DNA of 64,000 nucleotides. It comes from Plebeiibacterium marinum (GTDB lineage Bacteria > Bacteroidota > Bacteroidia > Bacteroidales > Marinilabiliaceae). Positions 8,162-23,042 of this stretch are shown here, one piece after another (position 1 is the first letter of the stretch; each line of letters opens with the position of its first letter). A program made the position numbers and the translations under genes. The stretch spans positions 1 to 64,000 of the forward strand of contig NZ_JAPDPI010000011.1 in assembly GCF_026013615.1 (NCBI RefSeq), in the 5' to 3' direction. The notes below the pieces were generated by a model, which made no database searches, was not told the DNA's origin, and saw only the letters and a program-made list of their open reading frames with translations.

Positions 8162-8584
8162 ATGAAAAAGTTTGAATTTACAATAGCGGGTAACCGTTAT
8201 AACGTAGAGATAAAAGATTTTGAGGATTCTATAGCTCAGATAAATGTGAATGGAACAGCTTATGAAGTTGAGGTTCATCAGGAAGTGAAGAAATCTAAAA
8301 CTCCAAAGTTGGTACGTAAGCCGGTTGTTCGCGAAGAAGGCGAAGGGGCTGTGCCGCAAAAAGCAACCGGAGCAGGTGCTATTAAAGCTCCGCTTCCCGG
8401 AAATATATTTAAAGTAAATGTTGCAGTTGGTGATACTGTGGCACATGGCGATGTGGTGATTGTGATGGAAGCCATGAAAATGGAAAATAATGTGCTTGCT
8501 GTTAAAGGTGGAGTTGTTAAGAGTGTTAAGGTAGCAGTTGGTGATTCAGTTCTTCAAAATGATATTCTAATTGAATTTGAATAG
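8162..8584 (+). CDS. Biotin carboxyl carrier subunit of the decarboxylase
   Basis: A 140-residue biotinyl-domain protein. The biotin attachment lysine is K106 in EAMKMEN. It is preceded by the lipoyl/biotinyl fold (IKAPLPGNIFKVNVAVGDTV) and followed by the symmetric half (VKSVKVAVGDSVLQNDILIEFE). The N-terminal 45 residues form a small beta-rich domain, and residues about 45-75 are an Ala/Pro/Lys-rich linker that lets the arm swing between alpha and beta subunits. Its end overlaps the upstream-extended frame of the next gene, and the stop and the next ATG (8586) are almost contiguous, suggesting translational coupling. Confidence 0.94.
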   Translation: MKKFEFTIAGNRYNVEIKDFEDSIAQINVNGTAYEVEVHQEVKKSKTPKLVRKPVVREEGEGAVPQKATGAGAIKAPLPGNIFKVNVAVGDTVAHGDVVIVMEAMKMENNVLAVKGGVVKSVKVAVGDSVLQNDILIEFE

Positions 8585-8585
8585 C

Positions 8586-9833
8586 ATGAAGAAGTTTATG
8601 ACCTTTTATTTTGTGCTGGCAATTTTGTTCTGTTTGCAAATTGTTTTTGGAACAGACATTAGTGCTGCAGTAGATTCTGCTTCCGGTGCGGAAGGTGGAG
8701 TTATGCACGGTTTAGTTGCTTTGTGGGATTTTACTGGTTTTGCAAATGTAACTTTGGGTAATATGGCCATGATTGCAGTTGGCTTGTTCTTTATTTTTCT
8801 TGCTGTAAAATATGATTATGAACCTTTGTTGCTAATCCCCATAGGGGTTGGTATTCTTATAGGTAACATCCCGTTTTTGCCTGGGTATAAAATTGGTGTG
8901 TACGAAGAGGGTTCGGTAATGAATTACCTGTATTTTGGGGTTAAACAAGGTATTTATCCTCCATTGATTTTCTTGGGTATTGGTGCTATGACGGATTTTT
9001 CCTCCTTGATCTCAAATCCTAAGTTGATGATTCTTGGGGCAGCAGCCCAGGTTGGTATTTTTGCCACTTTTCTTGGAGCTTCAGCGTTAGGCTTTTCTCC
9101 GGAAGAGGCTGGGGCAATCGGAATTATCGGGGGTGCAGATGGTCCAACGGCTATCTTCCTGTCTTCTAAATTGGCGCCTCAGTTGATGGGAGCCATTGCA
9201 ATTGCAGCTTATTCATATATGGCTTTGGTGCCGGTGATCCAGCCTCCTATTATGCGCTTGTTGATACCTAAAAAAGAACGTGCCATTAAGATGAAGCCGC
9301 CTCGTGCAGTTTCTAAAACCGAAAAGATCTTGTTCCCCTTGATTGGTTTGTTGCTAACTTGTTTTATCTCGCCATCGGCATTGCCTCTGTTGGGGATGTT
9401 GTTCTTTGGTAACTTGTTGAAAGAGTCTGGTGTTACAGAACGCTTGGCTGATACAGCCCGTAATTCGATGATCAATATTGTGACGATCCTTTTAGGGTTG
9501 ACTGTAGGTGCGTCAACGCAGGCAGATGTGTTTTTGACTTTGGCTTCGATTAAAATCTTTGGATTGGGAGCATTGTCGTTTATGGTTGCAACTGCTGGTG
9601 GACTCCTGTTTGCAAGGTTCTTAAATGTATTCCTTAAAAAAGATAATAAGATTAATCCATTGATTGGTGCGGCAGGTGTTTCTGCAGTTCCTGATTCAGC
9701 AAGGGTTGTTCAGAATGAAGGCTTAAAAACCGATCCTAATAACCATTTGTTAATGCATGCCATGGCACCTAATGTGTCGGGGGTTATTGGTTCTGCTGTT
9801 GCGGCAGGTATTATGCTGAGCTTCTTGTTATAA
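8586..9833 (+). CDS. Na+-translocating decarboxylase beta subunit (OadB/MmdB)
   Basis: A 415-residue integral membrane protein that decarboxylates carboxybiotin and couples this to Na+ export. The signature GGADGPTAIFLSSKLAP carries the membrane-embedded Asp needed for Na+ transport, and GNLLKESGVTERLADTARN is the second conserved region. About ten hydrophobic helices are present. The ATG at 8586 (MKKFMTFYFVLAI) is preferred over an earlier in-frame codon that overlaps the carrier gene. It is the last gene of the epimerase/decarboxylase operon and is followed by a good terminator. Confidence 0.93.
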   Translation: MKKFMTFYFVLAILFCLQIVFGTDISAAVDSASGAEGGVMHGLVALWDFTGFANVTLGNMAMIAVGLFFIFLAVKYDYEPLLLIPIGVGILIGNIPFLPGYKIGVYEEGSVMNYLYFGVKQGIYPPLIFLGIGAMTDFSSLISNPKLMILGAAAQVGIFATFLGASALGFSPEEAGAIGIIGGADGPTAIFLSSKLAPQLMGAIAIAAYSYMALVPVIQPPIMRLLIPKKERAIKMKPPRAVSKTEKILFPLIGLLLTCFISPSALPLLGMLFFGNLLKESGVTERLADTARNSMINIVTILLGLTVGASTQADVFLTLASIKIFGLGALSFMVATAGGLLFARFLNVFLKKDNKINPLIGAAGVSAVPDSARVVQNEGLKTDPNNHLLMHAMAPNVSGVIGSAVAAGIMLSFLL

Positions 9834-9861
9834 AAAAACAGATATATTATATATTGTATAG

Positions 9862-9888
9862 GGTCACCCGTTTTGGGTGGCCTTTTTT
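9862..9888 (+). terminator. Rho-independent terminator of the decarboxylase operon
   Basis: An 8-bp stem GGTCACCC/GGGTGGCC (one G-U pair) with a GTTTT loop is followed by six T. It begins 28 nt after the beta subunit stop. Confidence 0.85.
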
Positions 9889-10185
9889 GTTTGGGGGGGT
9901 TGATGTGATAAAAATCATAAAACGATCGTTAGTGTGGTTTTTGTGAGGGGTTTGGAGTGGGTAAGTACTAAAAATAATGACGATTGGTGTTGAAAAATGG
10001 GGGTGTGTATTGTTTGGAGATTAAATATTGTTATTTTTGATGTGAGATTATGGGTGGTGATATTGATATATGGGGAACTATGTTGATGTGATCATTTTTA
10101 ATTAACAAATGTAAAATTGCTAATAAAAATAGGGGATAGCAGTTTGCAGATTTTAAAAATAATTTTGAATCATAAAATGAATTTC
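9889..10185. other. Intergenic stretch without a gene
   Basis: About 300 bp of AT-rich DNA with G-rich runs on the plus strand (for example GGGGGGG near 9893). I see no open frame, promoter match or repeat here. Confidence 0.5.
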
Positions 10186-10222
10186 AAAAAAGGGCAGATC
10201 CGTTTGGGTCTGCCCTTTTTTT
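10186..10222. terminator. Repeated terminator hairpin, copy 1
   Basis: A 10-bp stem GGGCAGATCC/GGGTCTGCCC (one G-U pair) with a GTTT loop, flanked by six A and seven T, so it is bidirectional. The stem is the same as at the ends of the two following SusC/D operons (15241 and 22386). This copy lacks the 58-bp element that precedes the other two. Here it isolates the SusC leader from upstream transcription. Confidence 0.85.
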
Positions 10223-10276
10223 GTTATGTGACTGCAAAATAAACACATAACAAAAATTAACAAATAATAATAAAAA

Positions 10277-10307
10277 TTTGCAAGTGTTATAATATTTTCA
10301 TAATTTG
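10277..10307 (+). promoter_or_regulatory. Candidate promoter of the first SusC/D operon
   Basis: TTTG at 10277-10280, 20 nt, then TAATTTG at 10301-10307. This is close to the Bacteroidota TTTG / TAnnTTTG pattern but one base short in the -7 box. A start here would give a leader of about 360 nt containing the stem-loops at 10413-10548. Confidence 0.3.
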
Positions 10308-10412
10308 GGTTTGATCTTTCAAAAAAATGAATTTTTTATTTGATATAAGGGTGTAAAATCCGAGGGTTTAACCCTTAAAAACATTCATTTTTTGGTGACT
10401 GGTGTATATTAT

Positions 10413-10675
10413 TCTGCAAGTTTTAGTGTTCCCCCACGATTGCAGAGAAATTGTCAACTCACATAAATACCATTTAAACCTTTAGTCTGTATGGAAGTCC
10501 TTTTGCAACAATCAGTTTTTTCTTAAAGATCGGATTTGCTCAAATCCGTTAAGTGTTAGCATGTCAAACGTGGCAATGCCCGGTCTCCCTGTGGCATAAT
10601 GGAAGAATTATGTCTCTCTCTATTTGATTAATCTATAATAAGATATATGCATTTATTAACTTAAACTTTTGTTTT
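10413..10675 (+). ncRNA. Structured SusC leader, copy 1 (putative cis-regulatory RNA)
   Basis: Stem 1 is TCTGCAA (10413-10419) with TTGCAGA (10440-10446). It encloses a loop with GTGTTCCCCCACG (10426-10438), identical in copy 2. Next come ACTCACA (10457-10463) and TAAACCTTTAGTCTGTATG (10475-10493). Exactly 31 nt after the conserved GGAAGTC is stem 2, CGGATTTG-CT-CAAATCCG (10531-10548). A third weak hairpin, CATAAT/ATTATG (10595-10612), lies further on. Copy 2 at 15664 has the same architecture with different stem sequences that remain complementary. The loop and the block are complementary to the 3' elements at 15184 and 22327. I do not recognise a known riboswitch class. Confidence 0.65.
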
Positions 10676-13600
10676 ATGCGGAAATTAGCATTATTTCTGT
10701 CTATGATCCTTTTTGTGGGATTGCAGACGATGACAGCCCAAACAAAAGCTATTTCAGGTAAAGTGTTTGATAGTCAGGGCGAAGTGATACCTGGAGTGTC
10801 TATTATTGTTAAGGGTACAACAGTTGGGACGATTACTCGTCCGGATGGTACTTACAGTTTAAATGTGCCAGGAGATGCAAAGATACTGGTATTCTCCTTT
10901 GTGGGTATGAAAACCCAGGATGTATTAATAGAAGGCAGATCAACGATTAATGTAACAATGGAATCTGATGCCATTGATGTTGATGAGGTGGTTGTAACTG
11001 CCTTAGGTATTAGAAAAGAAGCCAAGGCGTTAGGGTATGCAACGTCAAATGTAGGTGCTGATGAACTTACGCAATCTGGTGAGCAGAATGTTATTCAGGC
11101 ATTGGCAGGTAAGGCTTCTGGTATTCAGGTTATAGGGTCCGGGGGTACCCCGGGTGCTTCCAGTAAAATTTTGATTAGGGGTAATTCTTCATTTACGGGA
11201 AATAACGAACCTCTTATTGTAGTTGATGGGGTGCCAATTGATAACACTACATCTCAAACAAATGCAGGTGATAACCCTTATAATAAAAACCTGGAGGGAG
11301 TTAATAACTCAAACAGGGCTTTGGATATCAATCCAGATGATATAGAGAGTGTTACTGTGTTGAAAGGGCCTGCAGCTGCTGCGTTATATGGTGTTAGAGC
11401 TGCGAATGGTGCTATACTATATACCACCAAAAAAGGAACACAAGGGGCAGCAAGTTTTACATATGAGTATAAGTTGGATATTTCAGAGGTGAGTCAATTG
11501 CCAGATTTTCAGGATGAATATACGCAAGGATCCGGTGGGGATTATAATATGGATGGATATGCCAGTTGGGGAGCTAAGATGTCGGATGAGGGCTTGACCC
11601 CAATCCATAATGTGGATAATTTCTTTGATACAGGGGTTACTCATACTCATAATTTCTCAGTTAGGGGAGGTAATGAAAAATCAAATTTCCGCCTTTCATT
11701 GAGCCATATGGAACAGGATGGTATGATTCCAAATACGGATTTGACCAGAACATCTGTTCGTATGAGTGGAGAAACTGAGGTGTATAAGGATTTTAAAGTG
11801 GGAGGAACTGCAAATTATGTGAAGAGTGGTGGTAATAAGGGGCAGAATGGTAGTAACCTTGCTGGTTTGATGTTGTCTTTGTTTAGGGCGCCTGTCAGTT
11901 TTAATCTTTATGATAAGGCTAATGGTGGTTATTATTATCCTGATGGAGAACAAAGAAAATATATAGCGTATTTTGATAATCCATACTGGTCAGTTTATAA
12001 TAATACATTTGAAGATGAAATTGACCGTGTGATGGGTAATTTTTATGCGAACTATAAGTATAAGTGGTTGACTTTTGATTATAAATTGGGTGTTGACTAT
12101 TATGCTGACTCCAGGAAAGCAATTATTGCCGTTGATTCATATGGTGGTGACGCCGGTGATGGAACCGGGGAAGTTGTAGAAAATATCATTAGGAACAGGG
12201 AATTGTATTCTAATTTCATGATTAGTGCATCCCATAGCTTTATGGATGGGCTAAATGGAAGTTTGAGTGTTGGGCATAACCTGAATGAGCAATTTAATCA
12301 AAGTTTATATGCTCGGGGAAGAAATCTTACTGCGCCGGATTTTTATCACTTGAGTAATGCAAGTGATTTGTATGCGGATGAGGCTAAAGAAATAATAAGG
12401 ACTTCAGCAGTTTTCTTTATTGCAGATGTGGATTATAATAATCTCATTTATTTGAATGTAACTGGTAGAAATGAATGGGCTTCTACCTTGGGTTCTAAGC
12501 AAATGGATTTTTTCTACCCTTCGGTAAGTACCTCGTTTGTTTTTTCTGAACTGTTACCTGAAAATCCTATTCTGACTTTTGGTAAGTTGAGGTTAGGATG
12601 GGCAAAGGCAGGTAATAATCCTGATGCATATGCAACGTCATCTTATTATACCCAGCCTATTGTGGCAGCGGGTATGACTGGAGGAATTGGTTATCCATAT
12701 TTGGGAGAGAGTGGTTTTAGTAATTCAACAACTCTTGGAAACCCTGATTTAAAACCGGAAATGACAACCGGTATTGAGGCCGGGCTTGATATAAGGTTGT
12801 TAAATGGTAGGGCAAATATTGATTTGACTTATTATAAACAAGAAACAAAGGATATTCTTGTGGCTCGTCCAATCGCTCCAACTACTGGCTTTAGTGAATT
12901 GTGGCAGAATAGTGGTGAGATGGAGAACAGGGGTATTGAGTTGAGTGTGGGAGGTACGCCTGTTAAGTTGCGTGATTTTTCATGGGATATTAACTTGAAC
13001 TTTACCAAGAATGAAAACGAGGTGAAGAAGTTGGCCGAAGGTGTCGATGAAATTGAAATAGAAGCTGCATTTTATTCTATGGGGTCGTATGCAATTGTAG
13101 GAGATCCATATGGTGCATTGTATTCTGATATGTGGGTGCGTGATGCAAATGGAAAAATGGTTGTTGATGATGAAGGTTACCCTATTATTGCTGATGAAAG
13201 AGGGAATGTAGGTAATCCTTTCCCGGATTGGTTAATGAATATTAGAAATACATTTAGTTATAAGTCTCTTTCTTTGAGTTTCTTGTTGGATATCAGGCAG
13301 GGAGGAGATATTTGGGGTGGTACAATTGCCAGGTTGAATCAGATCGGGCGTACCGCTATAACTGCAGATAGGGAAGGTACTATTGTAGTTGATGGTGTAA
13401 CTGAATCGGGAGCGCAAAATACGGTTGCTATATCAAAAGAAGATTATTTGAGATATGTGATTGGAGATTGGGGTCCCGGTGAAAATGCCGTATATGATGG
13501 ATCATGGGTCAGATTGCGAGATGTTACTTTGTCTTATAAGCTTAAATTTAAGGGTTCTTCACCTGTGAGCAATTATATTAAAGCAATGACCTTTACTGCG

Positions 13601-13750
13601 TCTGGTAGAAATCTTTGGTTGTCGACAGACTACCCTGGTGTTGATCCGGAAACAAGTTTGACTGGAGCAGGATCGAACTTGACGGGTTTCGACTACTTTA
13701 ATATGCCAGGTAGTAAGTCGTATGTTTTTGGTGTGAAAGTAGACTTTTAA
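10676..13750 (+). CDS. SusC/RagA family TonB-dependent outer-membrane transporter (operon 1)
   Basis: A 1024-residue outer-membrane barrel that imports oligomeric substrates with its SusD lid, energised by TonB. Order: signal peptide (MRKLALFLSMILFVGLQTM, ending TAQ), CarboxypepD-like regulatory domain (about 24-105, ISGKVFDSQGEVIPGVSIIVKGT), TonB box region DEVVVTALG, plug domain with LIRGNSSFTGNNEPLIVVDGVP and AAALYGVRAANGAILYTTKKG, then the barrel ending in GVKVDF. Full length for the family. The first 25 or so codons are almost identical in DNA to those of the second operon's SusC (15979), whereas the rest has diverged. No CAZyme, sulfatase or peptidase gene is nearby, so the substrate is unknown. 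Confidence 0.95.
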   Translation: MRKLALFLSMILFVGLQTMTAQTKAISGKVFDSQGEVIPGVSIIVKGTTVGTITRPDGTYSLNVPGDAKILVFSFVGMKTQDVLIEGRSTINVTMESDAIDVDEVVVTALGIRKEAKALGYATSNVGADELTQSGEQNVIQALAGKASGIQVIGSGGTPGASSKILIRGNSSFTGNNEPLIVVDGVPIDNTTSQTNAGDNPYNKNLEGVNNSNRALDINPDDIESVTVLKGPAAAALYGVRAANGAILYTTKKGTQGAASFTYEYKLDISEVSQLPDFQDEYTQGSGGDYNMDGYASWGAKMSDEGLTPIHNVDNFFDTGVTHTHNFSVRGGNEKSNFRLSLSHMEQDGMIPNTDLTRTSVRMSGETEVYKDFKVGGTANYVKSGGNKGQNGSNLAGLMLSLFRAPVSFNLYDKANGGYYYPDGEQRKYIAYFDNPYWSVYNNTFEDEIDRVMGNFYANYKYKWLTFDYKLGVDYYADSRKAIIAVDSYGGDAGDGTGEVVENIIRNRELYSNFMISASHSFMDGLNGSLSVGHNLNEQFNQSLYARGRNLTAPDFYHLSNASDLYADEAKEIIRTSAVFFIADVDYNNLIYLNVTGRNEWASTLGSKQMDFFYPSVSTSFVFSELLPENPILTFGKLRLGWAKAGNNPDAYATSSYYTQPIVAAGMTGGIGYPYLGESGFSNSTTLGNPDLKPEMTTGIEAGLDIRLLNGRANIDLTYYKQETKDILVARPIAPTTGFSELWQNSGEMENRGIELSVGGTPVKLRDFSWDINLNFTKNENEVKKLAEGVDEIEIEAAFYSMGSYAIVGDPYGALYSDMWVRDANGKMVVDDEGYPIIADERGNVGNPFPDWLMNIRNTFSYKSLSLSFLLDIRQGGDIWGGTIARLNQIGRTAITADREGTIVVDGVTESGAQNTVAISKEDYLRYVIGDWGPGENAVYDGSWVRLRDVTLSYKLKFKGSSPVSNYIKAMTFTASGRNLWLSTDYPGVDPETSLTGAGSNLTGFDYFNMPGSKSYVFGVKVDF

Positions 13751-13761
13751 ATTCTTGAATT

Positions 13762-15168
13762 ATGAAAATAAATAAATATATAATATTAGGACTTTTGGTG
13801 GCCTCTGTTATTGGAGGGTGTACCGAGAGCTATGTGGAAGGTTATAATACTTCTCCAAATTCTCCTTCAGAAGTACAGGAATCAAACTTGCTTACGGCAA
13901 CCGAAGTTGCAGTGTTTGGAAACGTAACAGGAGAGTTCGCCAGGGTAACTTCTATTTGGATACAGAATCAGGCTGGGGTTTCAAACCAGTCTCAACAAGA
14001 GCATGCTACCTATCAGGTGTATGAAGGTGATAATACCAATGAGTGGAATTCTATTTATACGGATTGGCTCGAAACAGCCCAGAATTTAATAGATCAGGCC
14101 GGAGATGAAAATCCTTATTATAAAGGAATGGGCTTGGTGTTAAAAGCATGGGGCGGTGGATTTGCTTCTGATATGTGGGGCGACGTTCCTTTTAGTGAGG
14201 CATTGCAGGGTACTGATATTTTGAATCCTCATTACGATACTCAAGAGGCGGTTTATGGTGCTATACAAACCTTGTTGTCTGATGCTATTACTGAATTTAA
14301 TAAAGGTGAGAGTGCAAACGTGACGCTTCCGGGCAGTGATGATCTGATGCTGGAAGGGGATATTGATCAGTGGAAAAAGTTGGCATGGATGTTAAAGGCA
14401 AGGTATGCAAACCGGTTAAGCAAGAAGAATCCTACAGGGAGTGCAGCTGATGTTTTAAGTTATATAAATAGTGCTGGATTGGTGGGTAATGCTGATAATG
14501 TATATGCAAAGTTTGGGATTAATCCAAACAATGCAAACCAATGGTATGCATTTTATTTACAAAGGGGTAATTATATGGCTATGGGAGAATATTTTATTGA
14601 TAAGCTGGTGGCGAATAGCGACCCTAGGTTGTCGTATTACGCAGCTCTTTCTCCTGATGAGTTATATGAGGGTTCTCCTGCAGATACTCGTATTCCCAAT
14701 GAAACAGCCAGTCCTATAGGTACGTACTTAAATGTTAATAATGGCCCGGTGCCAATGGTAACCTATGCAGAGATGAAATTTTTACAGGCTGAAGCGTATT
14801 TAAGGCAAAGTTCTCCAGATGCAGCTTCAGCTGCTGCAGCGTATAATGATGGGGTAAAAGCTTCGGTATTGGCGGTTACGGGATCGGCTGCGTCTGGTAA
14901 TTTTTTGAATAATCATGCCTCTTTAGTTGCTGGAGATGTGGATTTGGAACAGGTGATAGGAGGTAAATATGATGCATTGTTCTCTCAGGTTGAAATCTGG
15001 ACAGATTGGATTAGGACAGGGTATCCAACTTTAGTGGCAAATCCTGATCCTCTTGCTCGTTCGGGAGGAATCCCTTATCGTTTCCCAACTTGTATTGATG
15101 AGCGGTTGTATAATACTAATGCAATTGTTGTAAATGATATCTATGAAAAGCCATGGTTTGCAGAATAG
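13762..15168 (+). CDS. SusD/RagB family surface lipoprotein (operon 1)
   Basis: A 468-residue lipoprotein (lipobox VIGGC; mature end CTES) of the SusD-like family, with TPR-like helices that cap the SusC pore and bind substrate. Family landmarks: GGGFASDMWGDVPFSEALQG, QWKKLAWMLKARYANRLSK, and near the C-terminus EQVIGGKYDALFSQVEIWTDWIRTGYP and FPTCIDERLYN. It starts 11 nt after the SusC stop. The Asn-rich, acidic nature fits an outer-leaflet protein. It is the only partner of this SusC and is followed directly by the conserved 3' element. Confidence 0.93.
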   Translation: MKINKYIILGLLVASVIGGCTESYVEGYNTSPNSPSEVQESNLLTATEVAVFGNVTGEFARVTSIWIQNQAGVSNQSQQEHATYQVYEGDNTNEWNSIYTDWLETAQNLIDQAGDENPYYKGMGLVLKAWGGGFASDMWGDVPFSEALQGTDILNPHYDTQEAVYGAIQTLLSDAITEFNKGESANVTLPGSDDLMLEGDIDQWKKLAWMLKARYANRLSKKNPTGSAADVLSYINSAGLVGNADNVYAKFGINPNNANQWYAFYLQRGNYMAMGEYFIDKLVANSDPRLSYYAALSPDELYEGSPADTRIPNETASPIGTYLNVNNGPVPMVTYAEMKFLQAEAYLRQSSPDAASAAAAYNDGVKASVLAVTGSAASGNFLNNHASLVAGDVDLEQVIGGKYDALFSQVEIWTDWIRTGYPTLVANPDPLARSGGIPYRFPTCIDERLYNTNAIVVNDIYEKPWFAE

Positions 15169-15183
15169 AATATCATCTATGAA

Positions 15184-15241
15184 AATAACAACTATTCCGT
15201 GGTGGGACACATAGATTAAAGGTTTAGTTGTGTGAGTGGGG
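15184..15241 (+). ncRNA. Conserved 58-bp 3' element, copy 1 (putative 3'-UTR sRNA)
   Basis: All 58 bp are identical to 22327-22384 although the copies lie 7 kb apart in non-coding DNA. It contains CGTGGTGGGACAC (15198-15210), CACATAGATTAAAGGTTTA (15208-15226) and TGTGAGT (15231-15237). These are complementary to the leader loop (12 of 13 pairs), the leader block (18 of 19 pairs, two G-U) and ACTCACA (7 of 7). A strong terminator hairpin follows immediately, so element plus terminator has the size and build of a roughly 85-nt sRNA. Confidence 0.6.
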
Positions 15242-15270
15242 GGCAGATCCGTTTGGGTCTGCCCTTTTTT
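15241..15270 (+). terminator. Repeated terminator hairpin, copy 2 (end of operon 1)
   Basis: GGGCAGATCC (15241-15250), GTTT, GGGTCTGCCC (15255-15264), then six T. The stem is the same as at 10192 and 22386. Confidence 0.9.
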
Positions 15271-15663
15271 ATGGGCCTCTCTGTCTTTCTCAAAAAGGTT
15301 TGTTAACGAAAGTTAATACAGGTGGGTTTGTAAGCGCTTTTTTACAAAATGGTATTTAAAGGTGAAAGAAATTATGCCTTTTGAATAAAGTGTAATATTG
15401 TTTATTTGTATTGAATATTTGGAGGGGTAGGTTAAAAATAATTAAAAGTAAAATGGAGGCTATGTAAAATTTGGGTGGTCAATAGGGATTTAAGTATATA
15501 AAATGCTGCATAATGACGGTTTTTAATGTGGTGAGAATTAGTAAGTTTACTAATCCGTTAGTTCAATAAAAATGACAAATTCCCATATTGGGTTACAGTA
15601 GTCCTGTTAAAAAATATTAAAATAGATTTGAAGCTTAAAAAATATTTTAATACTTTAGTCGAG
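15271..15663 (+). promoter_or_regulatory. Intergenic region with candidate promoter of operon 2
   Basis: AT-rich DNA without a gene. TAGATTTG at 15623-15630 is a perfect match to the Bacteroidota -7 consensus and lies about 33 bp before the first leader stem. No clear -33 TTTG is present at 19-21 bp, so the promoter call is tentative. Confidence 0.35.
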
Positions 15664-15978
15664 AATTTACAAGGAATAGTGTTCCCCCACGCTTTGTAAA
15701 TTACATTGTCAACTCACAAAATAGTACCAATTAATTTAAAACCTTTAGTCTGTATGGAAGTCGATATTCAAAAATCAAAACCTTCTTAGTAAAGAGATAT
15801 TAATTATCTCAAGATGTTGCATGCCTTTGTTGGCTATGTATGCATAAGTATATGCCATTGTTTGGTATGTATGTGAATCTGTGCGAAGCAAAGATAATGG
15901 GAATACTTTGCTCTCTTCATTATGGAATTATCTATATAATTAATTAAATACACATTATTAATTTAAACCTTTTGTTTT
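15664..15978 (+). ncRNA. Structured SusC leader, copy 2 (putative cis-regulatory RNA)
   Basis: Stem 1 is AATTTACAA (15664-15672) with TTGTAAATT (15694-15702), enclosing the invariant GTGTTCCCCCACG (15679-15691). Then come ACTCACA (15712-15718) and AAACCTTTAGTCTGTATG (15739-15756). Stem 2, GAGATA-TTAAT-TATCTC (15794-15810), starts exactly 31 nt after GGAAGTC, as in copy 1. A third stem is AGCAAAG/CTTTGCT (15887-15912). Stem sequences differ from copy 1 but pairing is kept, while loop and single-stranded blocks are conserved. This is the pattern expected of a functional RNA. Confidence 0.65.
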
Positions 15979-18900
15979 ATGCGGAAATTAGCATTATTTC
16001 TGTCTATGATCCTGTTTGTAGGGTTACAGACAATGTCAGCCCAAACAAAAGCTGTTTCAGGAAAAGTTGTCGATGATCTTGGCGAGGCAATACCTGGAGT
16101 ATCTATTATTGTTAAGGGCACTACAATTGGGACAATCACCCGTCCCGACGGTACTTACAACTTAAATGTACCCGAAAATGCACCTGCAATCATTTTTACC
16201 TTTGTGGGGATGAAGATGCAGGAAGTTCCTTACACGGGACAAGCAACTATTAATGCAACCTTGGTGTCGGATACTGAAGATCTGGATGAGGTTGTAGTAA
16301 CAGCCATGGGTATTGTTCGTGAAAAACGAACAACAACTTATCAAACAGAAAAAGTAAAGAGTGAAGAACTTTTAGTTGGTCAGGCATCTAAAGCTGCCGA
16401 GGGATTAACAGGTAAAGTAGCCGGTCTGCAAATTAATAACCAGGATAATGGTGTGAATCCTAAGAAGCAAATTCTTTTAAGGGGTATGCGTTCGATTAGC
16501 GGTAACAATGAAGCTCTTATTGTGATCGATGGATCAATTGTTACTTCAGGAGCTTTTAATGATTTGAACCCTAACGATATTGAGAGTATAAATATCTTGA
16601 AGGGTGCAAGTGCTGCTGCGTTATACGGTTCTCGTGCTGCTAATGGTGCTTTAATTGTAGTTACAAAACAAGGCCAGAAAGGTAAAAAGCTAACAGTAGG
16701 AATAAATCATGCTACTAGTTGGGAATCTGTAGCATATATGCCTGATTTTCAAACTGAATATGGTATTGGTTGGGATGGAGAAGATAATCCTGTGGAAAAT
16801 ACAAACTGGGGAGCTAGATTTGATGGCGTTGTTAAGCAAATCGGGCCTACTTTTGCTGACGGATCATATCAAGCTGTACCATATGCTCCTATAGAAGACA
16901 ATTTGAAGGACTTTTATAATACTGGTGTTACCAATCAAACAACTGCATATTTATCAGGTGGTGATGAAACAAGTACTTTTTATTTGTCGTTAGGAAGAAC
17001 TGATGCAGAAGGAATTGTGCCTTCTGATGAGTACTCAAGATATACTGCCAGAGTAAATGTTTCAAAACAAATTGGTAGTGTAAAGTTGAGTGCAAATACA
17101 AGTTTCCTTACAGATGAGACTGATGTTGTTGGGGATAAAATTGGTGACCAGGATAGACCATTGTATTGGTTCGTATTAAATACTCCTGCTAATATTCCTC
17201 TATCAGAGTATAGCGACTGGGATAATCCTGAAAGTTACGGATATGCAGATAACTATTTTAATGCTTACTATCAAAACCCATATTGGGCTATTGGAACCAA
17301 TAGAAATGTTGATGAAACAAATAGGTTTGTTGGAAATGTTTCAGCATCATGGGATATTTTTGATAACATTAATTTAACAGGTCGCCTGGGAGCTAACAAT
17401 TCATGGGGTAATGGTAAAGACTGGAGAGCGGAGCAGACTTATGATGCTACACTTCAACCATATCACTCAACAGTGTCTTCTTTTGTTGAAGATTTTGAAT
17501 TCCAACGTGATATTTATACTACGGATGTAATTTTAAGTGGTGATTTTAATGTTGCTACTGATGTTACATTAAAAGCAATTTTAGGGTCTTCAACTTACTC
17601 ATATAAATATAGGGAAAGTACTCTTATTGCAAAGAATTTAAGTATTCCTGGATTTTATGATATTTCAAATGGAACCGGACAGTTAGAGGGAAAAGTTGAT
17701 CAGTCGGAAAAACGTACATATGGTTTCTACGGAGATTTTACTTTTGGATACAAAAACTGGGCTTTCCTTACTTTGACAGGACGCCAGGACTATACTTCTA
17801 CATTGAGTTCTGATAATAATAGCTATTTCTATCCAGCAGTTGGTCTATCTCTTGTATTAACCGATGCAATTGAAGCATTGAAGAATAATGATGTTTTGAG
17901 TTATGCTAAGTTAACGTTGAGTAACTCAACTGTTTATAATGACCTTAATCCATATCAGATTAATGAAAGGTATTATAAAAGAACGAATTCAGCAGGAGAT
18001 GTACTTAACCCATTCCCTTATGGAAGTATAAACGGATTTGATAAATCAGCAAGTGCTGTAGATTCAGATATTAAGAAAGAAAAATTAAATACAACAGAAG
18101 TTGGGTTGAATTTAGGTTTCTTTGGTTCTAGAATTAACCTTGATGCTTCTTACTATCATACCAAAACTACTGACTTAATTACTTACACTACTCCATCTTA
18201 TACATCAGGAGCTTCTGGATATTTGACAAATATTGGACAATTGACAGGAAAAGGATTTGAATTGTCTCTTGGAGGTCGTGTTCTTAATGTAGGTGATTTC
18301 AAATGGGATTTAAATGTTAATTTCTCTACTCAAACTACTACAGTAGATGAGATTATTGATGGAGTTAACGAAGTTGCATTGGATTCTTATACTTCTGGTT
18401 ATGGTACTTATGCTGTTGTAGGAGAGGCATTCCCTCAAATTAAGGCAGTTTCTTATGTTCGTCATGACGGAAAAGTTGTTGTTGATTCAGAAAGTGGTGA
18501 TCCAATTGTTGGTGAAATTGAAAACCAAGGAAGAACTACTCCTAAGTATATTTATGGTTTAACAACTCAGTTTGGTTATAAAGGATTAAAACTGTCAACC
18601 ACATGGGATTTAAGAACTGACTATGTTTATTACGCTCAAGGTTTAGATGCAATGGAATTTACTGGTAGGACTGAAGAGAGTGTAAGAGCTAACAGAGAGG
18701 ATTTTGTATGGCCAAATTCAGTTTATGAAACCAGCCCGGGTGTTTATGTTGATAATACCAATGTTGCCATTACAAATGGTGTTGGAGGTTTTTGGAGAGA
18801 TAAGTATGGTGAAATAAATGAGTGTTATATCCGTAATGCATCAAATCTAAAAGTTAGAGAGTTGGCATTAAGTTATGATTTGCCAAAGAGCATTCTTAGT

Positions 18901-19104
18901 AAAACAAACATCATTGAAAAAATGACTGTAGGTTTTGTTGCCAGAAACCTTTATACATGGTTCCCTGACGGACAAACCAGGTTCTCGGATCCTGAATTTA
19001 GAAATACTGATGAAGGAGATGACTCAAACGGTGTAGGTATTGGTGGTTACTTTACTTCTCCTCCTACCAGATCATTTGGTTTTAATGTGAATATTGAATT
19101 TTAA
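15979..19104 (+). CDS. SusC/RagA family TonB-dependent outer-membrane transporter (operon 2)
   Basis: A 1041-residue transporter with the same order as operon 1: signal peptide (MRKLALFLSMILFVGLQTM), carboxypeptidase-like domain (VSGKVVDDLGEAIPGVSIIVKGT), DEVVVTAMG, plug (LLRGMRSISGNNEALIVIDG, AAALYGSRAANGALIVVTKQG) and a barrel ending GFNVNIEF. The N-terminal 95 residues are nearly the same as in the 10676 protein, whereas plug and barrel are clearly different. The pair are paralogues sharing expression signals and signal peptide but probably not substrate. The gene is followed by its SusD within 15 nt. Confidence 0.95.
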   Translation: MRKLALFLSMILFVGLQTMSAQTKAVSGKVVDDLGEAIPGVSIIVKGTTIGTITRPDGTYNLNVPENAPAIIFTFVGMKMQEVPYTGQATINATLVSDTEDLDEVVVTAMGIVREKRTTTYQTEKVKSEELLVGQASKAAEGLTGKVAGLQINNQDNGVNPKKQILLRGMRSISGNNEALIVIDGSIVTSGAFNDLNPNDIESINILKGASAAALYGSRAANGALIVVTKQGQKGKKLTVGINHATSWESVAYMPDFQTEYGIGWDGEDNPVENTNWGARFDGVVKQIGPTFADGSYQAVPYAPIEDNLKDFYNTGVTNQTTAYLSGGDETSTFYLSLGRTDAEGIVPSDEYSRYTARVNVSKQIGSVKLSANTSFLTDETDVVGDKIGDQDRPLYWFVLNTPANIPLSEYSDWDNPESYGYADNYFNAYYQNPYWAIGTNRNVDETNRFVGNVSASWDIFDNINLTGRLGANNSWGNGKDWRAEQTYDATLQPYHSTVSSFVEDFEFQRDIYTTDVILSGDFNVATDVTLKAILGSSTYSYKYRESTLIAKNLSIPGFYDISNGTGQLEGKVDQSEKRTYGFYGDFTFGYKNWAFLTLTGRQDYTSTLSSDNNSYFYPAVGLSLVLTDAIEALKNNDVLSYAKLTLSNSTVYNDLNPYQINERYYKRTNSAGDVLNPFPYGSINGFDKSASAVDSDIKKEKLNTTEVGLNLGFFGSRINLDASYYHTKTTDLITYTTPSYTSGASGYLTNIGQLTGKGFELSLGGRVLNVGDFKWDLNVNFSTQTTTVDEIIDGVNEVALDSYTSGYGTYAVVGEAFPQIKAVSYVRHDGKVVVDSESGDPIVGEIENQGRTTPKYIYGLTTQFGYKGLKLSTTWDLRTDYVYYAQGLDAMEFTGRTEESVRANREDFVWPNSVYETSPGVYVDNTNVAITNGVGGFWRDKYGEINECYIRNASNLKVRELALSYDLPKSILSKTNIIEKMTVGFVARNLYTWFPDGQTRFSDPEFRNTDEGDDSNGVGIGGYFTSPPTRSFGFNVNIEF

Positions 19105-19118
19105 AAGGGATGATAGAT

Positions 19119-20576
19119 ATGAAAAAATTATTAATAATATTTTTTGTTTCGGTTCTTTTTGCATCATGTGATGATTTCCTGGATGTAAATGAAGACCCTA
19201 ACAATCCTACAGTAGTAACTCCTGAATTAGTATTGCCTGTTGCTCAGGTGTATACAGGTGAGTATGTGTTGGATTATGATATGGCTAACCACTTAGGTAA
19301 TATGTTAATGTATAACTGGAGTGAAACTTATGGATTTAGCTGGTATCAGGAAGAGTTTGATTACTTGGTGAGTACAACTTTTCATGATGATTTGTTTGAC
19401 GATGCGTATTTGTATTGTTTGAAACACTATAAAGATTTGTATGATCGTGAAGAAAAGTATAACAACTATCGCGCGATTTCAATGATCATGATGGCTTATC
19501 ATTTTCAAATGCTAGTTGATTTCTATGGAGATGTTCCTTATACAGAGGCTTTAGCCAGGGGTGGGAATCCCACACCTAAGTATGACCAGGCAGAGGCTGT
19601 TTATGATAGTATCATGATTCAACTTGATGATGCAATACAGTTAATTAACTCTGAATCTACAAGTGAAGTAGCTTTCGAATCTGTTGTTAATGATGTGATT
19701 TTTGATGGTGATATGAAAAAATGGAAACAGTTTGCAAATACCATCAAACTTCGTATTCTTGTTCGTGAGGCAAATGTTAAAGGTGATACCTATGTAACAG
19801 CAGAAATTGCAAAAATTACTGCCGAAGGATCAGGTTATATTACATCTGATGTTTTGGTAAATCCGGGTTACTTAAAAGAAACCAATAAGCAGAATCCGTT
19901 TTGGGATAGCTTTGGGGAAGATTCATCAGGAAATACAACCATGAATCATAATGCAACATGTGCTACTCAATTTATTATCGATTATTTGGTTAGTACCGGA
20001 GACCCACGAATTGATACATTATTTCAAAAGGGACCTGATAGTGAAACCCATTTAGGTGTTGAGCAGGGAGTTGTAAACCTGACAAGTGATTATGATCAGA
20101 CTCATGTGTCATTAATTGGAGCAGGGTTATTAAAAGGTTATGATGCTGGAGCACCTATATTTACTTTGGCAGAAAGTTATTTTAATCAGGCTGAGGCCGC
20201 ACTGAATGGTTTTGGAGGTAATGCAAAGGATTTGTATGAGAATGGCGTTAAAGCTTCATTTAGTTATTTGGGGACAGAAGGTGTAGAAGATTACCTGAGT
20301 CAAAACATAGCAAATGTTAGTTGGGATTATTCCAATAACAAATTGGAAGCGATTATTACTCAAAAGTGGTTAGGACTTATGGGTGTTAATGCAGAGCAAT
20401 CCTGGTTTGATTATACTCGTACTGGTTTTCCTTCAAATTTACCAATTTCTTTACAGGCAGATACTGAAGATAGACCAGTTAGGTTATTTTATCCTAATAG
20501 TGAAATTACAGGAAATACTAAAAATGTGCCAAGTCAGAAGGATGCATTTACTGATAAAATATTTTGGGCTGAATAA
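19119..20576 (+). CDS. SusD/RagB family surface lipoprotein (SusD-like, operon 2)
   Basis: A 485-residue lipoprotein (MKKLLIIFFVSVLFASCDD; cleavage before Cys). The ATG at 19119 is preferred over one at 19110 because it starts the signal peptide and has AAAAGGGA upstream. Features include FLDVNEDPNNPT after the lipobox, FYGDVPYTEALARGG, KKWKQFANTIKLRILVREANVKG and IITQKWLGLMGVNAEQSWFDYTRTGFPSN. The last of these is typical of the SusD-like subgroup with SusD_RagB C-terminal homology. It is the partner of the preceding SusC. Confidence 0.93.
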   Translation: MKKLLIIFFVSVLFASCDDFLDVNEDPNNPTVVTPELVLPVAQVYTGEYVLDYDMANHLGNMLMYNWSETYGFSWYQEEFDYLVSTTFHDDLFDDAYLYCLKHYKDLYDREEKYNNYRAISMIMMAYHFQMLVDFYGDVPYTEALARGGNPTPKYDQAEAVYDSIMIQLDDAIQLINSESTSEVAFESVVNDVIFDGDMKKWKQFANTIKLRILVREANVKGDTYVTAEIAKITAEGSGYITSDVLVNPGYLKETNKQNPFWDSFGEDSSGNTTMNHNATCATQFIIDYLVSTGDPRIDTLFQKGPDSETHLGVEQGVVNLTSDYDQTHVSLIGAGLLKGYDAGAPIFTLAESYFNQAEAALNGFGGNAKDLYENGVKASFSYLGTEGVEDYLSQNIANVSWDYSNNKLEAIITQKWLGLMGVNAEQSWFDYTRTGFPSNLPISLQADTEDRPVRLFYPNSEITGNTKNVPSQKDAFTDKIFWAE

Positions 20577-20588
20577 AAATTGTTAATT

Positions 20589-21464
20589 ATGAAGAGATTA
20601 AATTATATATTATTACTACTCCTGGGGGTGTGTTTATTTAGCTCTTGTGGAGATGGATTAGATCCGCTAGAAGGATTGGATGATACATTGACGATTGCTT
20701 CTTTTGAAAGCTATAGCGTTAATATGGGAGGAGAAGCCAATGGCTCAGAATATGATAAAGTTATCCAGGTTAAGGTTAATGGCCCTGGAATTATGGACTT
20801 AACAGAGGATGTTACTATGACTGTGGCTGCTGCTGATAATTCTACTGCAGTTGAAGGTCAACATTATAGAATTGAGAATAAGTCGATAACTTTAACTAGA
20901 TCAAATAATTATCAGGGGTTGATTGATATTGTTTTAATCACGGAAGGTAATACTCCTCCAATGGATGGTACTCCGGAATTTGATGATTATGTAGCACCTG
21001 TTTTATACCTTAATGCAGTAAGTGTGGTTGGAGGAGATAATACAGTAGCTACAGGTAAAACCGCAAAGATTACCTTGAACTTTACTCCGCCAAACCCATA
21101 TGCAGGTGAATATGATGTGGAGATGAGGTATTTCCATCCAAATGAAGGTGCTTATCCTGATAACTTGTATGGAGGGGTAAGAAATTATGTAAAAGAACTT
21201 ACTGCAATCACCGGAAGAAAATGTGAAACAGGTTTTGCTGTTTGGGGAGATTCTGACCTTTGTTGGATTACAATTAATGCAGATAATACAATTAGTTTTA
21301 TTGTAGATGATACTTGGCCTTCTGCTGTTAAGCTTGGTATTCCTGAAGATCCTTCAAAAGTCTCATATTTCGATCCTGAAACAGGAAAGATATACTTGTA
21401 TTACCATTATTCAGGTGCTGGAGGTAATAGGATTTTCTGGGAAGTATTTACTCCAAAGAATTAA
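20589..21464 (+). CDS. SusE-position surface lipoprotein, Ig/Calx-beta-like, unknown ligand
   Basis: A 291-residue lipoprotein (MKRLNYILLLLLGVCLFSSC). After the lipobox come an acidic spacer and a beta-rich region of about 130 residues resembling DUF4843/Calx-beta-type domains (VTMTVAAADNSTAVEGQHYRIENKSITL). A second beta domain follows, with aromatic residues (EYDVEMRYFHPNEG, KIYLYYHYSGAGGN). Position after SusD suggests a surface glycan- or peptide-binding accessory. No catalytic motif was seen. The frame opens upstream at a TTG (20580), but the ATG at 20589 starts the signal peptide. Confidence 0.75.
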   Translation: MKRLNYILLLLLGVCLFSSCGDGLDPLEGLDDTLTIASFESYSVNMGGEANGSEYDKVIQVKVNGPGIMDLTEDVTMTVAAADNSTAVEGQHYRIENKSITLTRSNNYQGLIDIVLITEGNTPPMDGTPEFDDYVAPVLYLNAVSVVGGDNTVATGKTAKITLNFTPPNPYAGEYDVEMRYFHPNEGAYPDNLYGGVRNYVKELTAITGRKCETGFAVWGDSDLCWITINADNTISFIVDDTWPSAVKLGIPEDPSKVSYFDPETGKIYLYYHYSGAGGNRIFWEVFTPKN

Positions 21465-21497
21465 TTAACGTAATTTGTTAGTTTAAAAATTTTTAAG

Positions 21498-22316
21498 ATG
21501 AAAAAATATAATAAAATATATATTTTATGTCTGGTTCTTGCATTGTTAGTTTTACCTGGTTGTTATGAGGATGAAGTAGCAGATGTAGTGAGCCCGGATG
21601 AATATCCAACGTATACGGTAACAAGTGATTATGATGGTGGTGAAATCAGAGAAGGTGATGTTATCAAGTATACCATCAAAATGGATAAGATGAGAACTTA
21701 TGCAACTCCCTTTGCTTTACATGTGATTGATGAGTCTGCTGATGATATAATAGAATTCGAAAATGTTACTATCCCTGCCTATTCAACAGAGGGTGTTATA
21801 GAAGTGACTTTTATAGATGACTTATTGCCATCAAATGAAGAGCAAACAATTAAGTATGAGGTGGGTTGTTTTTCTGATGCCGCCAAATATCTGCTTAATT
21901 CAAATTCTAAGGTAGTTTCTCAGGAACTTACTGTTAAAAACTACAATGACCCTTCAGGTTTAAGTATTATTGTAGGATGGGATAATGGTGACGATGATTG
22001 GGATTTAATGGTTGTAGATGAAGGTCAGAATGATGAATGGACTGGTTGGGCTGGTGCTACAGGTGCCAATCCTGAGCAAACATTATTGTTGAATGAAGAA
22101 GCTGACGGGGTTTATTATCTTGAGTTTGATCCATGGGATGTTCTTAATGATGTGGTAGAATTTGAGATTCTTATTGGTAAACCGGATCATACTGCTCAGT
22201 CATTTAGCTTTACATATGATGTAGAGGATGATGAAAGTTATGATAAAGGATGGGGTTATCGTGTTGTTAAGATTGAGAAGAGTGGAAGTTCCTATACTTG
22301 TACTGCTGTTGAGTAG
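21498..22316 (+). CDS. Surface lipoprotein of unknown function (operon 2, last gene)
   Basis: A 272-residue lipoprotein (signal ending LLVLPGC). It is strongly acidic with two beta-rich parts: residues about 30-150 resemble the Calx-beta/DUF4843 region of the preceding protein (VIKYTIKMDKMRTYATPFALHV). Residues about 155-272 form a domain with GWDNGDDDWDLMVVDEG and GWGYRVVKIEKSG, reminiscent of pre-peptidase-like C-terminal or DxxD metal-binding beta sandwiches. The ligand cannot be predicted. It is the last gene before the 58-bp 3' element, which begins 11 nt after the stop. Confidence 0.75.
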   Translation: MKKYNKIYILCLVLALLVLPGCYEDEVADVVSPDEYPTYTVTSDYDGGEIREGDVIKYTIKMDKMRTYATPFALHVIDESADDIIEFENVTIPAYSTEGVIEVTFIDDLLPSNEEQTIKYEVGCFSDAAKYLLNSNSKVVSQELTVKNYNDPSGLSIIVGWDNGDDDWDLMVVDEGQNDEWTGWAGATGANPEQTLLLNEEADGVYYLEFDPWDVLNDVVEFEILIGKPDHTAQSFSFTYDVEDDESYDKGWGYRVVKIEKSGSSYTCTAVE

Positions 22317-22326
22317 TGCATTTAAT

Positions 22327-22384
22327 AATAACAACTATTCCGTGGTGGGACACATAGATTAAAGGTTTAGTTGTGTGAGTGGGG
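22327..22384 (+). ncRNA. Conserved 58-bp 3' element, copy 2 (putative 3'-UTR sRNA)
   Basis: Identical over 58 bp to 15184-15241, including CGTGGTGGGACAC (22341-22353), CACATAGATTAAAGGTTTA (22351-22369) and TGTGAGT (22374-22380). It lies 11 nt after the operon 2 stop and directly before the terminator. The flanking coding sequences are unrelated, so the identity is not explained by a simple recent duplication of the whole operon. Confidence 0.6.
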
Positions 22385-22385
22385 A

Positions 22386-22418
22386 GGGCAGATCCAATAG
22401 GGTCTGCCCTTTATTTTT
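22386..22418 (+). terminator. Repeated terminator hairpin, copy 3 (end of operon 2)
   Basis: GGGCAGATCC (22386-22395), AATA loop, GGGTCTGCCC (22400-22409), then a T-rich tract. The stem is the same as in copies 1 and 2 and only the loop differs. Confidence 0.9.
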
Positions 22419-22426
22419 GCATAGAC

Positions 22427-23042
22427 CTGTCAGCGTTTTAAACCTGACAGTCATGGTGTATTCTTTTACTCCGCGCCCATCCTTATCCTATTCTGCTCCC
22501 AGGCAACTCCGTACCAACTTCGGCTTTTTGTCGACCTCTATTCGTCTCCTGTTCGCATGTATATGGTGAACCGTAGTCGAAGCTTACCCGAACACTTCCC
22601 GAACACATCCAGACTCTTTCCCGAAGCCGTACCGAAGAAACGTAGGAAAAAACCCGAAAAAAACCCGAATCCGGATAATTTTTTCAATTAACTCCCAGAA
22701 ACGTGACAATTTTTCGCATTAACTGCAAAAATCGTGATTATTGCCTTCTGTTGAACAAAATATTTGTAGGTGATTTTGGTAGTGTTGTGATGTATTCGGT
22801 TGATATATAAATGTATAGGCGATGTAAAAAGTAGCAGTAAAATTACTGCTATTTTCTGGATACTTTCTGAGCATTACTTTAGCATTAAACAATTATCAAT
22901 TAAAAGTTGAAAGTCTAACGTTGAAAGTAGAAAGTGATTTACAGCATTAAGTAAAAAGTTTAAAGTTAAATGTGATTTACAGATTTGACAATAAGCTGGA
23001 AGTCTATAACAAACTAGAATTGATAACTGATAATTGGTAATT
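22427..23042. repeat. Gene-free repeat-rich stretch
   Basis: Three things are visible. CTGTCAG/CTGACAG (22427-22433 and 22444-22450) is a degenerate inverted repeat. At 22480-22675 the motif CCCGAA/CCGAA recurs at least seven times, with TTCGG/TTCG on the other side. At 22906-22978 there are 7-mers of the type GTnnAAA (GTTGAAA, GTCTAAC, GTTGAAA, GTAGAAA, GTGATTT and, after a 10-nt break, GTAAAAA, GTTTAAA, GTTAAAT, GTGATTT). GATAACT, GATAATT, GGTAATT then follow at about 23022-23042. No gene is seen. Confidence 0.55.

Follow-up and report, generated by a model that had tools for sequence, protein, structure and literature searches.

We analysed a stretch of 64,000 nt from Plebeiibacterium marinum (positions 1 to 64,000 of contig NZ_JAPDPI010000011.1), hereafter called the window, which carries two SusC/SusD importer operons one behind the other. 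Each operon is preceded by a leader and followed by a 58 nt element, the two copies of which are identical (58/58), and parts of both leaders are complementary to this element. The hairpin at the tail of the operon and the start of its message are probably the two parts of an RNA switch carried by the operon itself, and both are retained when the importer genes lying between them are replaced. That leader and element are a regulatory RNA pair had been proposed before from the letters of the window (the original prediction); the motif positions and the identity of the elements given there agree base for base with the sequence.

Pairing of the leaders with the 3' element

Three parts of the leader are complementary to the element: the loop of a 5' hairpin, the motif ACTCACA, and a block further downstream. 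Counted by hand, the loop pairs at 12 of 13 positions (one G-U pair), the block of copy 1 at 18 of 19 (two G-U pairs), and ACTCACA at 7 of 7 with TGTGAGT of the element, the same counts as had been predicted. Co-folding of leader 1 with element 1 gave a binding energy of -22.0 compared to a mean of -9.9 for 200 dinucleotide shuffles (z -4.1; 0/200 as low). For leader 2 and element 2 the binding energy was -16.0, with a shuffled mean of -8.6 (z -2.9; 3/200 as low). Both window pairs thus bind better than shuffled sequence. In the co-fold structure the block and ACTCACA form two collinear helices, as the original prediction had stated, and the 5' hairpin stays folded. The loop-loop contact is outside this score, as a co-fold cannot represent such a contact.

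Duplex folding of the long leaders was dropped, since the shuffles also reached large energies, and was replaced by the co-fold and by an ungapped-helix score. With the latter the window pairs reached z values of -4.0 (copy 1) and -2.3 (copy 2), and the loop-loop helix ranked first in the genomes or operons G004, G006a, G003, and G002 (z -1.3, -4.5, -1.7, and -3.4, respectively). A duplex score allowing loose loops (z -3.1 and -1.6 for the window pairs) was uninformative for most other operons. The pairing exceeds chance for the window pairs and for most of the others tested. The element folds together with its terminator better than shuffled sequence (z -4.4 and -4.6; 0/200 each); the leaders alone fold no better than shuffles (49/200 and 59/200 as low).

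Occurrence and position of the element

Using a covariance model, 31 copies of the element were found in 24 of 71 genomes of the family (E <= 0.001). These were all nine genomes of the window's genus (group g1, Saccharicrinis/Labilibacter/Plebeiobacterium), 13 of the 14 Carboxylicivirga genomes (group g12), and the genomes G016 and G027. A BLAST search with 60 nt gave matches at E < 1e-11 in 9/9 g1 genomes; some genomes elsewhere in the family matched less strongly. Two conditions named beforehand as refuting the regulatory pair did not apply: leader and element co-occur in other genomes, and the interaction energy of both window pairs is better than that of shuffles. Each genome bears one to three elements, and 18 of the 24 a single copy. 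A wide spread of the element was considered and rejected: only 5 of 393 genomes of the order matched at E <= 0.01, three from the window's genus and two others being weak (26.1 and 27.5 bits), in a search that ran stricter filters and lost weak matches. In a scan of named genomes 2 of 25 stretches (L094 and L108) were set aside, as the remainder of the element is missing from them and SusC gave no match.

In an alignment of 18 copies the core around AGAYTAAAGGTTTAGTTGTG is invariant while the sequence of the adjoining terminator stem changes; this invariance is overstated, because the pattern used for collecting the copies fixed part of the core. The consensus fold of the alignment was little informative, as a different inner hairpin was picked in the invariant part, and the covariance model was built upon this fold. 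Three copies (L037, L038, and L039) carry a short palindromic insert, CCTGCCAGTCAGGCA, between GTTGTG and TGAG.

A SusC operon lies directly 5' of the element in 27 of the 31 copies. Three more are cut by contig ends and are too close to them for placing (G008:C383, G058:C67, and G104:C428). A diverged element in G008:C110 (L142, near 12747) follows a short open reading frame (ORF) that by eye is lipoprotein-like, and not a SusC/D operon. The SusD query matched in 25 of the 27 operons; the other two, G058b and G041b, have a gene of 455 aa instead. The presumed seed of the element begins 28–46 nt past the last listed stop codon in 25/27 operons and 98 and 481 nt past it in the other two, as measured from a listing of ORFs of at least 150 aa.

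We searched the region 9800–23000 for known Rfam families. The seven matches at E <= 1 all stayed under the gathering scores, the best one, Listeria sbrA, reaching 27.9–29.1 bits where the gathering score is 45, and being driven by the terminator. No description of the element was found in the literature of one open-access library.

The leaders of the element-bearing operons

The leaders of all 27 SusC operons preceding an element were read. In the window's genus a hairpin displaying GTGTTCC(C/A)CC(A/G)C is found in 10 of 11 operons, with a variant in G006b, and ACTCAC follows 3' of the hairpin in 9 of 11. Eleven hairpins, one of them from an additional G003 leader, were aligned. On both sides of the stem 6 of 13 pairs were changed (1/500 shuffles as high). 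Paired cells amounted to 90.2% (0/500 shuffles), compared to 39–51% with the partner slid. The window rows appear out of register in the alignment, an error that acts against obtaining such a covariation result. The Carboxylicivirga leaders are without such a loop and mostly show ATCGCCATTATTAA ahead of the same block. In many of them the motif TCGCCA occurs at least twice (e.g., L127 7130–7609), partly in predicted hairpin loops.

In 22 of 27 leaders the 12 nt core of the block is mismatched to the element at no more than one position, with an ATG starting within 4 nt. At position 12 of the block the core-bearing leaders show either A or G, both able to pair with the U of the element; given the small number of events, the pattern is indistinguishable from a simple transition.

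The block as a translation-start region

The interpretation given in the original prediction is partly supported. It had recognised the pairing and had missed that the block reads as a translation-start region, which suggests a concrete mechanism. In the window the last bases of the block are the ATG of a putative short leader ORF; when the leaders of relatives were compared by eye, no conservation of the leader peptide beyond the first residues was found. In Carboxylicivirga the block contains start codons of SusC genes themselves. The SusC start motif TTAAACYTTTWGTTTTATGCG is present in 23 of the 71 genomes, all of them element-bearing; in G001, the one other genome with the element, the motif differs by one base.

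The more general pattern AAACCTTTARTC-N(0-3)-ATG is present in 31/71 genomes, in some of which the hit is the element read from the opposite strand. Its sites were read at the fetched loci, and merging identical contexts left 48 distinct ones. Twenty-seven of these open ORFs of more than 60 aa, 24 SusC-like and 3 not. Nineteen of the 24 SusC-like ORFs begin with MKKVL, 17 of these 19 in Carboxylicivirga. The remaining contexts are 3 known leader ORFs and 18 short ORFs that look chance-like. Applied to the genome of the window, the strict pattern matched both leaders, both elements (on the opposite strand), and a single site on C129 that opens a frame of 53 aa. When 16 Carboxylicivirga SusC starts were compared with the element of the same genome, 15–18 contiguous pairs were obtained, and the entire start codon was included in 14 of the 16.

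Five element-following Carboxylicivirga SusC genes (L126, L127, L128, L134, and L140) carry in their leaders an arm, AGGTTTAATAGTTGTGTG, which resembles the core of the element. In the consensus fold it pairs with the gene's own SusC start region. As none of the 24 pairs is changed on both sides, this fold rests on complementarity alone. The predicted closing of its own SusC start by such a cis arm favours repression as the direction of control.

Exchange of the importer genes at a conserved site

The SusC/SusD site (10676–22316 in the window) lies 3' of the gene for the oxaloacetate decarboxylase beta subunit, OadB (8571–9833); the corresponding loci are L118–L141. Between loci OadB is 78–94% identical and the flanks are conserved, whereas SusC is mostly 30–45% identical. 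Some SusC pairs reach 58–83% without following the genus. The SusC of G001, for example, is 75% identical to that of G003 and 67% to that of the Carboxylicivirga genome G052, yet only 36–37% to those of G004 and G007a from its own genus.

Mantel tests on 11 loci gave r 0.74 for leader and OadB distances and 0.71 for element and OadB (0/5000 permutations each), and 0.72 for leader and element. For SusC the values were 0.28 with OadB (171/5000), 0.38 with the leader (137), and 0.31 with the element (116), so that a weak vertical signal remains. Over the 27 operons the first 23 residues of SusC have a mean identity of 69%, compared to 34% from residue 110 onward. The leader, the start of SusC, and the 3' element thus act like a frame whose cargo changes.

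Proposed mechanism and alternatives

We lean towards the following reading. The conserved stem-loop with which the operon mRNA ends has, together with its terminator, the build of a small RNA derived from a 3' untranslated region (3' UTR); a free RNA would be cut out of this transcript or copied from it. Its loop would expose the seed AUAGAUUAAAGGUUUA, followed just outside by UGUGAG, for pairing with the block AAACCUUUARUC...AUG, both in its own leader and in that of the sister operon. The leader hairpin loop GUGUUCCCCCAC and GUGGUGGGACAC of the element may form a second contact in the genus of the window. The pairing would keep ribosomes from entering at the leader ORF; for further SusC genes of Carboxylicivirga it would block the starts directly. 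The outcome would be a negative feedback on SusC and SusD output and, by way of the identical elements, a cross-talk of sister operons. How a blocked leader ORF would act on SusC translation is the least certain step; coupling, Rho-dependent termination, or mRNA decay could each be responsible. Self-regulation is the primary reading, because most element-bearing genomes have a single copy. The mutual sensing of paralogous SusC/D systems suggested by the original prediction is possible for the window, as its two elements are identical, and takes second place.

The same pairing would also serve an interaction restricted to one molecule, in which the 3' end of the mRNA touches its own 5' leader and sets the stability or translation of the full-length transcript without any free small RNA. 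The 18 single-copy genomes, in which the element lies in the same operon as the leader where this can be read, fit such an arrangement. We nevertheless consider it unlikely: the hairpin and terminator have the build of a stable small RNA, and Carboxylicivirga SusC genes with the target block lie on contigs for which the model lists no element (e.g., G054:C14, G041:C2, and G058:C71), which suggests action in trans. The direction of control could also be reversed. Situated 5' of the SusC start TTAAACCTTTTGTTTTATG in the same leader, the block is similar to it in sequence, so that the leader ORF start might be a decoy competing for ribosomes; an RNA blocking the decoy would raise SusC output in a positive feedback. 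We hold this to be quite improbable, as pairing should be repressive in Carboxylicivirga, where start codons of SusC lie within the block, and as the five genes with a cis arm could close their own starts.

Leader and element might, on the other hand, have no role as RNA and be conserved flanks for homologous exchange of the SusC/SusD genes. Both the low SusC identity next to a conserved OadB and the leader and element distances, which track OadB while SusC does so weakly, would be expected in this case. Flanks of this kind do not by themselves predict that leader and element are complementary. The covarying leader hairpin, the terminator that changes beside an unchanged element core, and the restriction of position 12, in leaders with the block, to the two bases pairing with U also speak against this explanation, to which we give very little weight. 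Still less credit is due to pure coincidence, that is, an A+T-rich start motif happening to match a conserved hairpin that stabilises the 3' end. The modest z-scores of single operons in several genomes would fit coincidence. Against it, the match is repeated beside an ATG in 22 of 27 leaders, across genera with otherwise dissimilar leaders, and 23/71 genomes contain both the element and the SusC start motif; the genomes being related, these counts are not independent.

We also looked for TAnnTTTG, which we take to be the Bacteroidota -7 box. It was present in 24 of 27 leader stretches of 480 nt, in many just 5' of the hairpin (background 32%), and in 3 of 27 stretches of 110 nt lying 5' of the element, for a background of 7.5%. 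The background was taken from noncoding and coding DNA together, the latter being poorer in A+T than the leaders; the leader figure is inflated by this A+T content, which weakens the comparison. In the window leaders no perfect box was found at the expected place. A box that is common at the leaders yet rare 5' of the element fits, and favours, a 3'-UTR origin of the putative element RNA.

Several observations weigh against the proposed small RNA acting on the translation-start block. The stem of the element itself shows no compensatory change. As the seed hardly varies, in part owing to the collecting pattern, none can be demonstrated between the two RNAs either, and in the genus of the window the positions flanking the core are often mismatched. 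Four of the 27 leaders (G007b, G058b, G041a, and G003) lack the block as defined above, and in that of G002 the core is intact and the ATG is changed to ATA. In the ungapped-helix test several operons had their best helix outside the block and many z values were only about -2. Among eight further operons that were co-folded, G046, G102, and G016 were weak, their energies being reached by 12, 24, and 8 of the 200 shuffles, respectively. The leader ORFs of the window end 149 or 189 nt 5' of SusC, a distance that the route from leader ORF to SusC has to bridge. Finally, the block is also found at SusC starts in G011, G020, and G035, from genera in which the model detected no element; it is therefore older or wider than the element and may serve initiation independently of it.

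Comparison with known systems

Small-RNA control of SusC importers is already known from gut Bacteroides. The FopS small RNAs of Bacteroides thetaiotaomicron block SusC starts and are countered by the protein RbpB; 14 copies are described, nine intergenic, four antisense, and one from a 3' UTR, with a predicted single-stranded 5' seed region (PMC11697453). As a candidate small RNA, the element resembles FopS in the order of seed and terminator, in its predicted pairing with SusC-type mRNAs around a translation start, and in having several putative targets per genome. It differs in being present in 1–3 copies per genome, 27 of the 28 placeable ones at the 3' ends of SusC operons, and in having its seed within a stem-loop. 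The predicted target in the window is a leader ORF start and a hairpin loop; SusC starts would be direct targets in Carboxylicivirga. Element and FopS were compared by these descriptions, and the matches of our Rfam scan of the region, all under their gathering scores, were to other families.

OppZ and CarZ of Vibrio cholerae are small RNAs from 3' UTRs that are processed by RNase E and repress their own operons (PMC7398697). The element shares with them the location at the 3' end of the targeted operon, between the last stop codon and the terminator in the copies following a SusC operon. It also shares the complementarity to its own transcript, which is weak in some operons, and the negative feedback proposed here. 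Processing and repression have been demonstrated for OppZ and CarZ and are proposed for the element; organism and genes are unrelated, and its main target would be a leader ORF start far 5' of SusC with a possible second contact at the hairpin. The DonS-type antisense RNAs of Bacteroides polysaccharide loci, as cited in PMC11697453, likewise represent RNA-based control of SusC/D-type loci. They are described there as encoded in cis, DonS divergently to its locus, whereas the candidate RNA lies on the same strand at the operon end. By analogy, the element system would work like FopS and OppZ/CarZ combined, a likeness that does not imply membership in either.

The RbpB domain RRM_1 sets the window's genus further apart from the FopS system: it was found in 0/9 g1 genomes, other RNA-binding partners not having been looked for. 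In the family it was present in 44 of 71 genomes, including 14/14 Carboxylicivirga; many genomes of g5 and a number of others lack it. A control search gave matches in Bacteroides ihuae and Synechococcus elongatus among 14. The genus without RRM_1 coincides with the genus having the hairpin loop and the second helix, which is only a hint, as a single evolutionary event is concerned.

More tentatively, and with considerable doubt, we suggest that the leader and a 3'-end small RNA recognising each other form a portable regulatory frame. The two would be inherited together at one site while SusC/SusD between them is replaced, any incoming importer coming under the same feedback, and in the genus without RRM_1 the hairpin loop and the second collinear helix may replace the help of the protein. 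If the proposal is true, a related family has a separate design: a small RNA carried by the very operon under its control, directed at the start of a leader ORF and, in one genus, acting without an RRM protein. It would also provide a handle on the control of newly acquired importers, because both halves stay while the cargo changes.

Features of the window

Coordinates and features of the two SusC/SusD operons of the window
Feature	Coordinates	Strand	Remarks
Leader 1, 5' hairpin	10413..10446	+	Loop GTGTTCCCCCACG at 10426-10438; predicted fold; covaries across 11 leaders of the genus
Leader 1, ACTCACA	10457..10463	+	Complementary to TGTGAGT of the element; used in the co-fold
Leader 1, block TAAACCTTTAGTCTGTATG	10475..10493	+	18/19 pairs with the element; last bases are ATG
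Leader 1, putative short ORF (MEVLLQQSVFS)	10491..10526	+	Starts with the ATG of the block; sequence only
SusC 1 (TonB-dependent receptor)	10676..13750	+	Pfam
SusD 1	13762..15168	+	Pfam
3' element 1, stem-loop with all three complementary stretches	15184..15241	+	
Terminator adjoining element 1	15241..15270	+	Sequence and fold
Leader 2, 5' hairpin	15664..15702	+	Loop GTGTTCCCCCACG at 15679-15691; fold and covariation
Leader 2, ACTCACA	15712..15718	+	Sequence
Leader 2, block AAAACCTTTAGTCTGTATG	15738..15756	+	Last bases are ATG
Leader 2, putative short ORF (MEVDIQKSKPS)	15754..15789	+	Sequence only
SusC 2	15979..19104	+	Pfam
SusD 2	19110..20576	+	Pfam
Operon 2, third gene	20580..21464	+	BT_3044-like C-terminal match under the Pfam cut-off
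Operon 2, final gene	21498..22316	+	No Pfam match at E <= 0.001
3' element 2	22327..22384	+	Same sequence as element 1
Terminator adjoining element 2	22385..22415	+	Stem unlike that of terminator 1

A further terminator is situated 5' of operon 1 (10186–10216). It has its stem in common with the terminator of element 1, and no element adjoins it.

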